Assembly: GCA_002104985.1 (NCBI GenBank) | Contig: MCGO01000005.1 | Location: 806,001 to 870,000, forward strand | From: Rhizoclosmatium globosum | Taxonomy: Eukaryota > Chytridiomycota > Chytridiomycetes > Chytridiales > Chytriomycetaceae | Reading direction: 5' to 3' | Length of the DNA stretch: 64,000 bases | In this document: piece by piece, positions 50,287-54,685 of the stretch | How positions within the stretch are numbered: position 1 is the stretch's first letter | Layout: the number at the start of each line of letters is the position of its first letter | The notes under the pieces: model-generated | The model's input: the letters and a program-made list of their open reading frames with translations, nothing else | Told to the model about the DNA's origin: nothing | The model's database searches: none | Program-made: the position numbers and the translations under genes

Positions 50287-50692
50287 TTTTGATTGATTAG
50301 TTTGGAATAAATAAAGTTGTTTCTTTATTTAATTTCAAAACGTCCTGGAAGCGGAGATCCAAGTGGAGATATTGTGCGAAAAACTTGTTCGGAGTCTCCG
50401 ACAGTGCTGTAAGTTCGCTCTCGTTCTCTGATCCTTGCCAACCTCTACTTTCCTGCTACTCCTCATTACTTCTATCTGATATACTCCAATTAGAAAACCC
50501 GATGGGCAACTTTCTTTCTAAAACGGGTATGGGTCGCTTTTACTGTATTTAACATTTTAGAAGAACATTAAAAAAAAACAAAAGGTAAAAGAAAAAAACA
50601 TACCTGTAAAAAATAATTAGAATTATGCCATAAGGAAATCAAGGCCATACCAAATTTCTTTGTATTGTTAATCAGGAATGTATCCAGGGCTG
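50287..50692. other. Intergenic 3' flank of Fanzor gene
   Basis: Lies between the GRAM gene and the Fanzor stop codon. A short frame at 50340-50410 shows possible splice signals on both strands (GTAAGT after GACAGTGCT on plus, TTACAG on minus) but no recognisable product. The stretch 50560-50690 directly after the Fanzor stop is AT-rich with an A run; in characterised Fanzor/TnpB elements the guide RNA is encoded at this side of the gene. No terminal inverted repeat was recognised by eye. Confidence 0.4.
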
Positions 50693-53600
50693 TTAAATGA
50701 AAGCTGCAGGTCGACCACCAGTATGATTGTAATGAAACAGCAAGTGGCGAATGTTGCATGCAGCTTGAATATCTTTGTCCACAATCTTAGCAACAAATGT
50801 TAGTGCTGGTACCAGTCACAAGCATACATACAGTAGGGGGTCCTGGAATGAGTGGGCACTCAACAAGACCATAAACTGAACTCTGGATGTTAGTAAGATC
50901 AGGGCATTGAACAAAGGGATGCATTGGTTGTTTGTCATCATCAATGCAGTATTTTCTCCAGTGAAGATCCTGAAACTTGCGTTTCTTGTGGGGGCATCTA
51001 AGAATAGGACGTCGAACCTAGTCCAACATTAATGTAAGACTTACTTTGTTGATTACTTACTGTCACAACTGGTGGATATTGGAACACACCTCCTGCCTCA
51101 TAGCCAGCACTGAGACGATGGGACCGCTGTGAAGTCAAATGCTCATCAATAACAAACACAAAGTGCTCATGAGCAGCCTTTTCTCTGATTCTCTGTGTGA
51201 AAAACACATATTTAGTATTGCCAACCATTGCGTTAAACTGACATTGTTGGGAACAGGTGCCCATGGTCTCTGGTGATTCCAAGATCCATCGCCATAAGCA
51301 AAATAGACTGGTGCAACAGGAAAAGCTGGAATATTATTCAAGCGGCGTGTTCGACGGCGGAGTTTTCTTGCTCCAGGAACAATCCTGCCTTGCATACTGT
51401 TCCAATCAGTGTCTGTCATGCGCCCAGCCATACGATTGATGAGAGCTTGTTCAGCCCGCTGGTGTTTCATACGACTGCTCTGCTTCCACTTTAGATGCTG
51501 GGGACGAGAATACTCTTGCAACAAGAATTCTGACTGGAAATGCTTGACCATCCAGGTCCATTGACACCAATGACCCAGTGTACGTTGACCAATAACACGT
51601 GGAGAATTTTGAGCAAGGACATCATATGCAAAGTTGATGCGGTGATCATTGTCTCGGAACACCTCTTCCCTCTTTTCAGAGAGCTTAGAACCATTGATTT
51701 GACGCATATGACCATGGGAAACCTGAACAACGTGGTCATGAATAATTTGTCGTGATGGAGGATGTGCAGGCGGAGGTACTGGAACTGGAGCAACAGCAGC
51801 ATTGTTGATTTGGAGCTGGATATCACTATTGACACAAGTTACAACATTCCTGATACCTAAATAGGTAAAATAAATATCAGAAGCTGATTTAGTAAGCCAA
51901 ACACAGAAATCAAACCTGGGTCAACACTAATAACATTGTGAGGATCCAAGATTCCAGCTTGAATTTGATTCACAATTCCCATATTGTTTATGTGATGATC
52001 CACACGCACCATTCCACGACCATTTATCATGAATTGGTTATAGTTATAATTTTGTGGGAGTGAATTTGCATCATCAGTCCAACTTTTGTGAGGAACTCTG
52101 TTGGCATTTGCTGCAAGATTGTTCTGAACAAAGGCTTGTCTGGTATTCAGAGTCCATGAAAAGCTTCTGCCATCAGTTTGAAGATAATATGAAGCTAGGG
52201 CCCTTTAGAATTATTCAATGCAATAAAGTTTTACATACAATCAACATCATTCCTCAAGTGGCGACTCCAGCGAACAGATTCAACTCGAAAAAACAGTCCA
52301 ATTATGCCACGATGTTCAGCTCGAGTCCCTCCATGACCATTGTATCTTCCAACCCCATTTGGTGGACTAATTATTCCCAATGCAGGTACAATGATGTGCT
52401 GGAAATGTGCAGCAGCAGCTACAAGTGAAGGTGGAAAGTTAACTCCACCTGGTGGTTGAGGAAGTGGAACAGCAAGAGGCCCCAAAAGGTCCCTCAGTCG
52501 TGGCATAAAATATTGACATAGAACACGATAGTCTATCCCACAAAAGACTGCTTGAGCCGTGGTAGCATTGGTTGGAAGTGGTGCAAGAGGAAAATAAGCT
52601 TCACTTCCAAGGAGTGCCATATCTGGGCGAATAAAACTGTTTCAATGGTAGTATGTTTGAAATTAGCAAATGAAGGCTTGACAGATAAAAACTTACTCTC
52701 TGGTATAAGCCAAAATATTATTGCCCATTCTTGACATTGCCCTAATAAGATTCATTTCAAAGTGTGGGCCACGCTGAATGTTATTGAAGGGCATGGCAAC
52801 AAGAAACTGTCTGTGATGGAGAAGAAATGCAACAATATTGTTGGTCACTGCCTGTGGAACTGCTACAGGAAGTGCAAGTGGGGCACCAAATGGTGGGGTC
52901 AGGTAATTGTATATTGCTGTCTTTGCAGTTGCCTTGATAACAGCGGTAGGTTGGTATCCATGCAGGAAGCAATGAAAGTTGAAAACCTGAATTATGTTGT
53001 AAGATTTAAAGTAAATTTCAGACAAGATCAACAAACCTCCTCAGCCAGCTTGCCTAAATTGGCAATGAATCTGCGAGCAAGTGCATTTTCAAAGTCTGTA
53101 CGCAATCGTTTGGCTTCAATGGCAATAACTTGCTCCCATTCATAGCCGGGACAGTTAAAGAGGGGAACCATTCGAAGACCAGGTTGGATGGGTTGTCCAT
53201 TCTGAAAACCATTGTTGTCACAACTAAATGGATGATGAAAGTTTTGGAAAGTTTCCAACAAGTAATGTCTTGTGACAGAACGGCGGGTGTTTTGGTGTGC
53301 CTGAAGGGCTGCACCAACTGGAAGGATGTAGGGTGTGCCAACAGGATTGCCAGGAAGTACAAAACCAATTGGAAGTGGGGCATGATAATTATTGGCGAGC
53401 AGATTTCCAGAAGCATACTTGAGTGCAAATTGGAAGAAGGATTCTGAAAACTCAATGTCAAGATGATCGTGACCTAATTTTAAGTCCCAATGAATTTAAA
53501 CGATATTAATTTGAGCTGTTAAATACCAGTTGGGTTGCGCTCTAGGTGAAGGTTGATTGCAAGCATGGCATCGGAGCGTAGGAGGGACACATTTCTTGCA

Positions 53601-53758
53601 AACTCTTGTAAGAGTGGCCCCATTACACAACGTAGTTCTGGTCGAGTAGCTTGTCTTGCTCCAACATGGCGAGTGCGATGGAAGTTGTTTTGAGCCATAT
53701 GAATGACAGAAGTGGCGACCAAAAGAATGAGAAGAATAGATAGGAGGCAAGGCCTCAT
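50693..53758 (-). CDS. Fanzor (eukaryotic TnpB homologue), RNA-guided nuclease family
   Basis: Intron-rich gene of about nine exons, start at 53758 (or MAQNNFHRTRHV at 53698, preferred because the longer start adds a signal-like hydrophobic stretch). RuvC-I: NVISVDPG (about 51925) spliced to IRNVVTCVNSD (about 51855), giving the TnpB/Fanzor DPGIRN motif with catalytic Asp. A TnpB-like VYFAYGDGSW segment (near 51300) follows. RuvC-II: FVFVIDEHLTS (near 51155) with Glu. RuvC-III: last exon IVDKDIQAACNIRHLL...GGRPAAF (50790-50693) with Asp. Between RuvC-II and III, Cys residues occur (LRCPHKKRK, RKYC, QCPDL, ECPL), but the usual CxxC after TS is TSQRSHRL, so the zinc finger is altered. Fanzors cut DNA guided by an RNA encoded next to the gene. 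Catalytic residues look intact. Confidence 0.87.
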
Positions 53759-53865
53759 CAGTTGGCTCGTGTTTTTTTCTCGAATGCAATTTTCACACTG
53801 TTATCTTTTTTATCCGATCTCATTTTCCGTTGGGGTTTACCCGGAGTTTTTCCGGCTTTCTTCCT

Positions 53866-53934
53866 CTCAGCAACACGAACCTAGAACCTCTTGATTCATA
53901 GTCGAGCGCGGTAACCATTTGGCCATTCGCCCAT
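53866..53934 (-). tRNA. tRNA-like relic (degenerate)
   Basis: Read on the minus strand, box A TGGCCAAATGG and a box-B-like GGTTCGTGTTG frame an anticodon-arm-like stretch (CTCGA, loop CTATGAA, TCAAG with one mismatch), overall colinear with nuclear tRNA genes. The acceptor stem does not close and the T-arm is imperfect, so it is more likely a tRNA-derived relic or SINE head than a working tRNA. It lies about 110 bp upstream of the Fanzor start. Confidence 0.45.
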
Positions 53935-54092
53935 GACATGTGGTCAAGATCGGCAAAGAAAAAATGAAGATGAATGTTCTTCGTCTCTGAAAATAATAGT
54001 AGGATGACCAATTGCCTTAAAGCAGATAGAAGAAAGAAAAAAGAAGGAATACAATATTTATTTTGTTTTACTCATACTCAAGTTGATGTGAA

Positions 54093-54685
54093 TCACAAGT
54101 TCTTTTCTGGTTGCGACTCAGATGATGGTGATGGGGCAGTGAAGGTAGATGGCATATTGTAGGCTCCAGTACAATCCTGCAATGAGTCGCCCAACTTTAC
54201 AACAGTGTATCGAATGACACGCTCGTCAAAAGACAGAGCTTTCCTCAGACCAGCCATAGTTGAAGGAGAAGCGTCAAACTGCATAGCCCAAGTGATTCCG
54301 TGCGAAAAGATTTCCTGATGTCTGCGCATGCGGTAAGGCAGTTCCTGAGTTTGCAGCCGTTGGAAGCCACGGACAACTCCGCCATTGTCAAGGACGTGAA
54401 GGGCGGCAGTCTTCATGAGCGGCTTCACGATTTCCTCCTTCCATTTCTACGATGATCAGGGTATTGAGAGTGAGTCATGTGTTGATTTGGAGGTGATTTG
54501 GAGGGGTAGGAGGCTTACAGAGTCGTCCTTTGAGAACATTGAGGTGACAGACTCAACGGCTGCACCGACAGCTCGGGGCTTTGTGCGGCGGGCGATGCAG
54601 ACAAGATCGTAGAGAGGCTGGGTAGTGAAGGGGTTAATGCATTAGTCGTTGGTGTGTGTGGTAGGCAGAGTAGCGAACTAACCAT
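54093..54685 (-). CDS. MRP17: Mitochondrial ribosomal protein bS6m (MRP17/MRPS6)
   Basis: Small-subunit mitoribosomal protein. Exon 1 contributes only the start codon: ATG (54685-54683) is followed at once by GTTAGT. Exon 2 (from about 54613) reads PLYDLVCIARRTKPRAVGAAVES, matching the YEL-type first strand of S6. After a second intron near 54450-54515, exon 3 gives LHVLDNGGVVRGFQRLQTQELPYRMRRH, GITWAMQFDASPSTMAGL and LDERVIRYTVVKLGD, the full S6 fold, plus a short Ser-rich tail. No separate presequence is obvious, as in other MRP17 proteins. Divergent from VPS53 with 98 bp between the starts. Confidence 0.88.

Follow-up and report, generated by a model that had tools for sequence, protein, structure and literature searches.

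The window analyzed here, a stretch of 64,000 nt from the genome of the chytrid Rhizoclosmatium globosum, carries an intron-rich gene whose product has RuvC motifs resembling those of the RNA-guided Fanzor nucleases. The first-pass annotation took it for a Fanzor that might be domesticated or a solo element. The locus raises the questions of whether this protein belongs with Fanzor, whether it is a gene kept by the host or is carried by a mobile element, and what an RNA-guided enzyme might do for such an element.

Gene model and RuvC motifs

On the minus strand, between window positions 53758 and 50693, nine exons joined across GT-AG introns give a single uninterrupted frame of 887 codons, stop included, encoding 886 amino acids (Table 1). 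Rereading the sequence reproduced the start, end, strand, and named peptides of the first-pass annotation, along with its description of an intron-rich gene in which splicing joins the motifs. The DPGIRN junction, formed from NVISVDPG and IRNVVTCVNSD, is also present in P0001, an NCBI gene model of another copy (Rhizoclosmatium globosum BCR33DRAFT_848342) that is independent of the window model. P0001 matches the window gene in exons 1 to 5, in exon 6 minus its last few residues, and at this junction, and intron 4 was set according to it, giving 886 amino acids. The P0001 model stops within exon 6 because its copy is truncated at the 3' end; the joins leading to VIDEHLTS and DKDIQAACN therefore rest on the GT-AG sites and the open frame.

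Table 1. Positions of the gene, the element, and predicted features in the window
Feature	Window position	Strand	Basis
Fanzor-like gene, exons 1-3	53758-53527, 53473-53037, 52986-52697	(-)	Splicing and P0001
Fanzor-like gene, exons 4-6	52636-52239, 52194-51916, 51856-51243	(-)	Splicing and P0001 (exon 6 nearly all)
Fanzor-like gene, exons 7-9	51192-51061, 51017-50832, 50785-50693	(-)	GT-AG sites, open frame
Codon of D544 (RuvC-I, DPG)	51920..51922	(-)	
Codon of E767 (RuvC-II, "alternative" Glu, DEHLTS)	51142..51144	(-)	
Codon of D861 (RuvC-III, KD..AACNI)	50771..50773	(-)	
Fanzor-like transposon, element proper, 3457 bp	50543..53999	(-)	Common sequence of 18 copies stops, flanks differ
Left TA target-site duplication	54000..54001	(-)	Copy comparison, empty sites
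Right TA target-site duplication	50541..50542	(-)	TA at 21/21 right junctions (18 copies and 3 ghosts)
Predicted TAM 5'-CCTA-3' (CC host DNA, TA duplicated target)	54000..54003	(-)	Copies, ghosts, empty sites
3' conserved block, predicted guide-RNA scaffold	50541..50742	(-)	91-93% identity with gene-less ghosts L061, L063, L064
Predicted guide of the window copy, first 20 nt of host DNA past the right TA	50521..50540	(-)	SpuFz1 analogy
Left end (about 63 bp with TA) in common with pogo/Tigger-type transposase elements	53939..54001	(-)	
tRNA-like dispersed repeat in 5' leader	53876..53937	(-)	About 60 bp, 85-90% identity, at least 14 other places

The protein presents, in order, D544PG, G734DG, E767 in DEHLTS, and D861 in KDIQAACN. 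A DPG motif together with an "alternative" Glu marks the Fanzor lineage (PMC10711439). In Fanzor1 this Glu stands six residues ahead of the first zinc-finger Cys and is followed by [TS][TS]; here the corresponding stretch reads E767-HL-T770-S771, the position of the Glu being judged from the expected site of that Cys (S774). The spacing from D to [TS][TS] is 225 residues, which lies inside the published Fanzor1 pattern D-X(125,275)-[TS][TS] (PMC3627910). The distance from G734 to E767 is 33 residues, with G734 matched to the conserved Gly by reading rather than by alignment, compared with 36 residues between G500 and E536 of SPu-1 (PMC3627910).

It might be argued that the open reading frame is a transposon accessory protein unrelated to Fanzor, with RuvC-like motifs that are coincidental. 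The spacings given above speak against this, as does the order of the motifs: with an expression built from published motifs after the protein had been seen, the full order DPG..G..E..[TS][TS]..[RK]D..AA occurred in 0 of 100,000 shuffles of the protein. Shorter versions are less demanding; DPG..E..[TS][TS] alone was attained in 450 of 100,000 shuffles, and the full order minus the final AA in 89 of 100,000, the latter figure favoring coincidence. Two departures from Fanzor1 also favor it. A C4 zinc finger should lie between motifs II and III, being described as "strictly conserved" in PMC3627910 and as present in "many" members in PMC10711439; here it is absent, and there is no CxxC in the whole protein. 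The RD of RuvC-III reads KD, so that the Arg is missing and the Asp (D861) is retained.

The first-pass annotation had also proposed a profile search. This was silent, indicating neither Fanzor/TnpB nor a contrary family: the NCBIfam profiles gave nothing, and the sole Pfam family listed to E=10 was OrfB_IS605 (E=0.79), across the DPG segment. The PF07282 zinc-ribbon model had no match in the genome. Sequence searches of the PDB with the protein returned no TnpB or Fanzor chain and no significant similarity, and a word-based search of 5.8 billion proteins (2250 and 8000 candidates scored) matched only the protein's own model. A scan of viral contigs for a Fanzor1-like signature gave 0 matches, and a TnpB zinc-ribbon consensus run against plasmids and the PDB found TnpB/Cas12 and no chain labeled Fanzor. 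The single-sequence AlphaFold prediction of P0001, made without relatives, had a mean pLDDT of 31.7 and was unusable. Within the set of papers searched, none paired Fanzor with Rhizoclosmatium, pogo, or Chytridiomycota. This lack of a significant database match to Fanzor or TnpB is what an unrelated protein would predict; however, the single Pfam family listed is OrfB_IS605, it lies over the DPG, and the element has a right-end block and a left-flank motif as in Fanzor elements (see below). We consider an unrelated protein very unlikely.

Carriage by a eukaryotic DNA transposon, another Fanzor1 trait, is seen here in 18 copies, TA duplications, and empty sites. We call the window protein a divergent, zinc-finger-less Fanzor-like RuvC nuclease carried by a pogo-type transposon. 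The DPG, the Glu, the spacing, the Gly, and the transposon are found while the zinc finger and a significant match are not; we therefore take the protein to work like a Fanzor1 and to be probably a diverged member, without classifying it formally. The Fanzor identity first proposed for the gene thus stands as regards the Fanzor-type RuvC arrangement (DPG, alternative Glu, TS) and falls short at the missing C4 zinc finger.

Copies of the element and its left-end relatives

The genome (56.9 Mb, 420 contigs) contains at least 130 exon matches to the Fanzor-like gene. Eighteen loci, including the window, have 97-100% identity in exon 6, and further degenerate copies exist. The sequence common to the 18 near-identical copies starts CTATTATTTTCAG after a TA and finishes TTAAATACAG ahead of a TA, and beyond these points the flanks differ. 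The terminal inverted repeats are poor (by eye). Judging from this comparison of copies, the element is a young, multicopy, non-autonomous DNA transposon inserting at TA. A Helitron identity was rejected, as the element ends and the TA duplication do not fit it.

Nine of the 17 other near-identical copies are readable across the whole coding sequence; eight of these are free of stops and frameshifts, one of the eight carrying a 6-nt deletion, and the ninth has a 1-nt deletion. The remaining eight were read in part, with a stop in one. The catalytic D, E, and D are kept in 16 of the 17, and the copy in C24 is without the last two because it is truncated. Over seven degenerate copies pN/pS is 1.05, which gives no signal of selection, and the old gene copies are neutral-like pseudogenes.

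A domesticated or solo nuclease gene maintained by the host, as first suggested, would agree with the intact frame and with a 3.46-kb element that itself has no transposase, but not with 18 near-identical mobile copies at unrelated sites with different flanks, with TA duplications set against empty sites, or with several decayed copies. Copy number and the empty sites refute a domesticated single gene, and we regard this alternative as virtually untenable. Transposase genes with the same left end are found elsewhere in the genome.

The bases at the extreme left end are altered in 4 of the 18 copies. In three of them (L070, C367:123 kb; L071, C334:511 kb; L030, C24:672 kb) the altered bases equal the copy's own 3' flank after the TA, a match of 8 nt in C24, as though target sequence had been copied into the element; in L067, the fourth, there is no such match.

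In the window, the element lies about 90 bp beyond the stop of the ribosomal protein S6 gene (PF01250, E=2.5e-15), which identifies the ribosomal protein neighbor named by the first-pass annotation. A GRAM domain, claimed for another neighbor, was not found by Pfam in the single frame tested. The S6 gene is duplicated at 98% identity (window 54000-54685 and C201:320538-321218), and the border of the duplication is exactly the CCTA occupied by the window element. In the C201 copy, the 98 nt beyond the duplication match nothing else in the genome; a dispersed repeat was rejected there, the sequence being single copy. Past the right end, a 69-bp stretch (window about 50409-50341) recurs at 96-97% in five other places and matches no Rfam family at gathering scores. 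Within the element, a tRNA gene in the 5' leader was rejected after ARAGORN proved negative at normal settings and gave only forced calls at a lowered threshold.

The left end is not confined to the protein-bearing copies. A search for elements with the left ~65 bp and no protein gave 19 rows, from which one carrying a Fanzor exon 1 remnant and a 39-bp orphan, both with CC, were dropped, leaving 17 relatives, of which 4 are without TA. The bodies of 16 of the 17 were read over 2-4 kb and have no match to the Fanzor-like protein. The relative in C373 (in L031) has a decayed Fanzor-like gene on its outer side and an inner 3.4 kb without a match. Thirteen of the 16 bodies, L057 included, match the transposase of L057/L058/L060, though only over short stretches; L102, L103, and L104 have no match to it. 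Pfam identified HTH_Tnp_Tc5 and DDE_1 in L057 and L098, the two relatives tested, with the HTH_Tnp_Tc5 score just below the cutoff in L057 and above it in L098. Across the genome, DDE_1 is matched 29 times. We take elements with this pair of domains to be of the pogo/Tigger type, and the TA target-site duplication is the one expected of that group within Tc1-mariner. Most of the 13 TA-bounded relatives contain whole or partial transposase genes. The Fanzor-like element probably shares a pogo/Tigger-type transposase with them, as judged from the left end only.

Two further loci deserve mention. L093 (C360:49800-53220), flanked by CC-TA, is a decayed composite in which a left part resembling a transposase is combined with Fanzor exon 1 (80% over 71 aa). 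In L057, minus-strand open frames beside the transposase (1939-2587) resemble a histone H3 variant by eye, and this stretch lies partly inside a region of 97% identity with L095.

The CC dinucleotide, the 3' block, and the empty sites

The dinucleotide CC stands ahead of the left TA in 17 of the 18 protein-bearing copies; in the exception, C334:448553, the terminal bases have been lost. It is also present in 3/3 ghosts (L061, L063, and L064), which lack the Fanzor-like gene and combine the same last ~200 bp with an unlike body of about 630 bp. Among the 13 TA-bounded left-end relatives without the protein, CC precedes TA in none; the 13th, in C373, has TT. The difference between 17/18 copies and 0/12 relatives, counted before the 13th was included, gives a Fisher P of 1.5e-7, and the background in the window is 172 of 5576 TA preceded by CC. 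One of the 17 relatives (L078/L094) has CC, yet ahead of AA, and junctions in decayed ends such as those of L073 and L077 were placed by eye, neither of these two being CC before TA. The unclassifiable 39-bp left-end orphan (C367:303222) reads CCTA too. Elements related to the ghost body but with a different 3' end (L086-L090) are found at TTTA or CTTA, with CC in 0 of the 5 read (two weaker rows were left out). Since copies and ghosts have CC, and left-end and ghost-body relatives do not, the motif goes with the 3' block. This block occurs at 32 places, comprising the 18 copies, the 3 ghosts, and 11 decayed copies or fragments outside the left-flank count. Whether or not they encode the protein, elements that have the 3' block and a readable left end lie almost exclusively at CCTA. 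The L086-L090 family, lacking the 3' block, might point to a further Fanzor system that uses a different TAM.

The 3' block covers the last codons, the stop, and the 3' part of the element and finishes ACAGTA. In two degenerate copies compared with the window, it differs at 2/199 and 3/172 sites, versus 83/2565 and 94/1407 sites elsewhere in the gene region; L020, the third copy compared, has no such contrast (3/74 versus 70/2407). Evidence of a conserved RNA fold was not obtained: folding of the block was no better than that of shuffles (z of -0.36 and -0.73), compensatory changes were seen in 0/34 predicted pairs, and the 8-bp closing helix was attained in 37/500 shuffles. Rfam gave nothing over 50400-54100 up to E=1, nor across the whole window at gathering scores. 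The guide RNA of SpuFz1 comprises the right end and 14-15 nt of flank (PMC10432273), and the terminal inverted repeat and target-site duplication are predicted to be part of the Fanzor1 RNA scaffold (PMC10711439). By analogy, the scaffold here is predicted to end ACAGUA, with the guide running from window position 50540. The shared block (50742-50541) falls within the 3'-side region, 50500-50760, in which a guide RNA had been expected from the first reading, and that expectation appears sound.

SpuFz1 has CA ahead of the left repeat in both gene-bearing and ghost elements, and its TAM is CATA (PMC10432273). Because CA and TA occupy the same place there, the TAM of the window element is predicted to be CCTA. 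CC might instead reflect the target choice of a transposase recognizing the 3' end, RNA-guided cutting playing no role. That CC tracks the 3' end, in 3/3 ghosts with another 5' end and the same 3' block against TTTA/CTTA in 5/5 relatives with another 3' end, is compatible with such a preference. A transposase must bind both ends, however, yet CC is found in 0/13 of the TA-bounded elements sharing the left end, and in SpuFz1 the matching dinucleotide belongs to the measured TAM. We consider a transposase preference unlikely and retain CCTA as the predicted TAM.

With the joined flanks of the 18 copies and 3 ghosts as queries, and 40 of 52 candidates scored, three element-free counterparts were found. 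C290 corresponds to the C174 copy, C170 to the C399 copy, and C363 to ghost L064. All three have CC, a single TA, and then the 3' flank, and thus TA is what is duplicated and CC belongs to the host; CC as element sequence is ruled out by its retention at these three sites. Relative to the C399 flanks, C170 lacks 17 bp and is otherwise identical over about 200 nt on the left (all that was compared) and 85 nt on the right. The gap begins 1-3 nt past the TA (+2 to +18 through +4 to +20), its placement being ambiguous because of a 2-nt microhomology, and loss and gain are indistinguishable because the extra 17 bp of C399 includes a short duplication (a possible gain). C290 lacks 1 bp at +6 and has other differences from the C174 copy, clustered on the left. 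C363 has three mismatches in the first 20 nt and a 3-nt gap near +26, and on the left it differs at 2 of 60 nt.

SpuFz1 cuts after 16-17 and 20-21 nt (PMC10432273). Scars of empty sites in the predicted protospacer could mean that the guided nuclease cuts element-free host sites, which are then filled or scarred, leaving a footprint of Fanzor-driven retention. This reading is tentative and, in our judgment, somewhat less probable than its opposite: it would rest on just three empty sites, including that of a ghost, which is not enough to assert a footprint, and C290 and C363 differ from their partners outside the protospacer too.

Proposed mechanism and closest known systems

The gene, the ends of the element, its TA duplication and copy number, the modular 3' block, and the linkage of CC are established by the sequence comparisons above. 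We infer a guide RNA, guided cutting, mobilization in trans, and retention, which may be connected as follows. The element, non-autonomous, is probably moved in trans by a transposase of the pogo/Tigger type (Tc1-mariner superfamily) with the same left end. Its right end would be transcribed to yield a guide RNA, with the last ~200 bp (...ACAGUA) as scaffold and the flanking host sequence past the right TA as guide. The complex would recognize CCTA plus a match to the guide, which is the empty site after excision or on the other chromosome copy, and the nuclease would cut about 15-20 nt downstream. Repair from the filled copy would then restore or copy the element. We propose that insertions at CCTA are kept because cut empty sites are repaired from the filled copy. 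Taken as a whole, the account of a Fanzor-like element that is mobilized in trans, makes a guide RNA, cuts at CCTA, and is thereby retained seems to us likely to be correct.

The nearest precedent is SPu-1/SpuFz1, the Fanzor1 of the chytrid Spizellomyces punctatus in a TA-duplicating element (PMC10432273, PMC3627910). As far as these sources describe it, that element and the window element are alike in being multicopy, non-autonomous, and flanked by a TA duplication, and in having protein-less ghosts with a common right-end block, which is the region of the guide RNA in SpuFz1 and of the predicted guide RNA here. In both systems a dinucleotide stands ahead of the left TA in both classes of element, CA in SpuFz1 and CC here. 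They differ in that the window gene has nine exons and encodes 886 aa, whereas SPu-1 is a single 633-aa open reading frame; unlike SPu-1, the window element has poor terminal inverted repeats (by eye) and its protein has no C4 zinc finger. Transposase elements with the same left end occur in R. globosum, whereas none is reported within the Spu-1 repeats of S. punctatus in the relevant account (PMC10432273). The Mariner elements PGv-1, PUl-1, and PUl-4 carry Fanzor1 with or without a transposase between family ends that duplicate TA (PMC3627910). Those proteins are Mariner-borne, whereas the left-end relatives of the window element are of the pogo/Tigger type and have one end in common with it.

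TnpB has a RuvC D-E-D triad and recleaves the empty site, by which its element is retained. The window protein shares the D-E-D, but unlike TnpB it has the DPG and the alternative Glu, and its element has eukaryotic cut-and-paste ends. For TnpB of IS200/IS605 and IS607, a right-end RNA, a guide derived from the flank, and recleavage of the empty site are described (PMC10432273).

The biological role of Fanzors is given as unknown by Saito et al. (PMC10432273). The distribution of the copies suggests that the guide RNA decides which insertions survive, a role that is still unproven for such an enzyme. This genome provides a built-in comparison, in which elements sharing a left end are found at sharply different sites according to whether they have the protein and the guide-RNA block. 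Should measurement show the TAM to be CCTA, guided cutting as the means of retention would be the simplest account in a eukaryote. A Fanzor that functions despite lacking the C4 zinc finger would also narrow the requirements of the fold.
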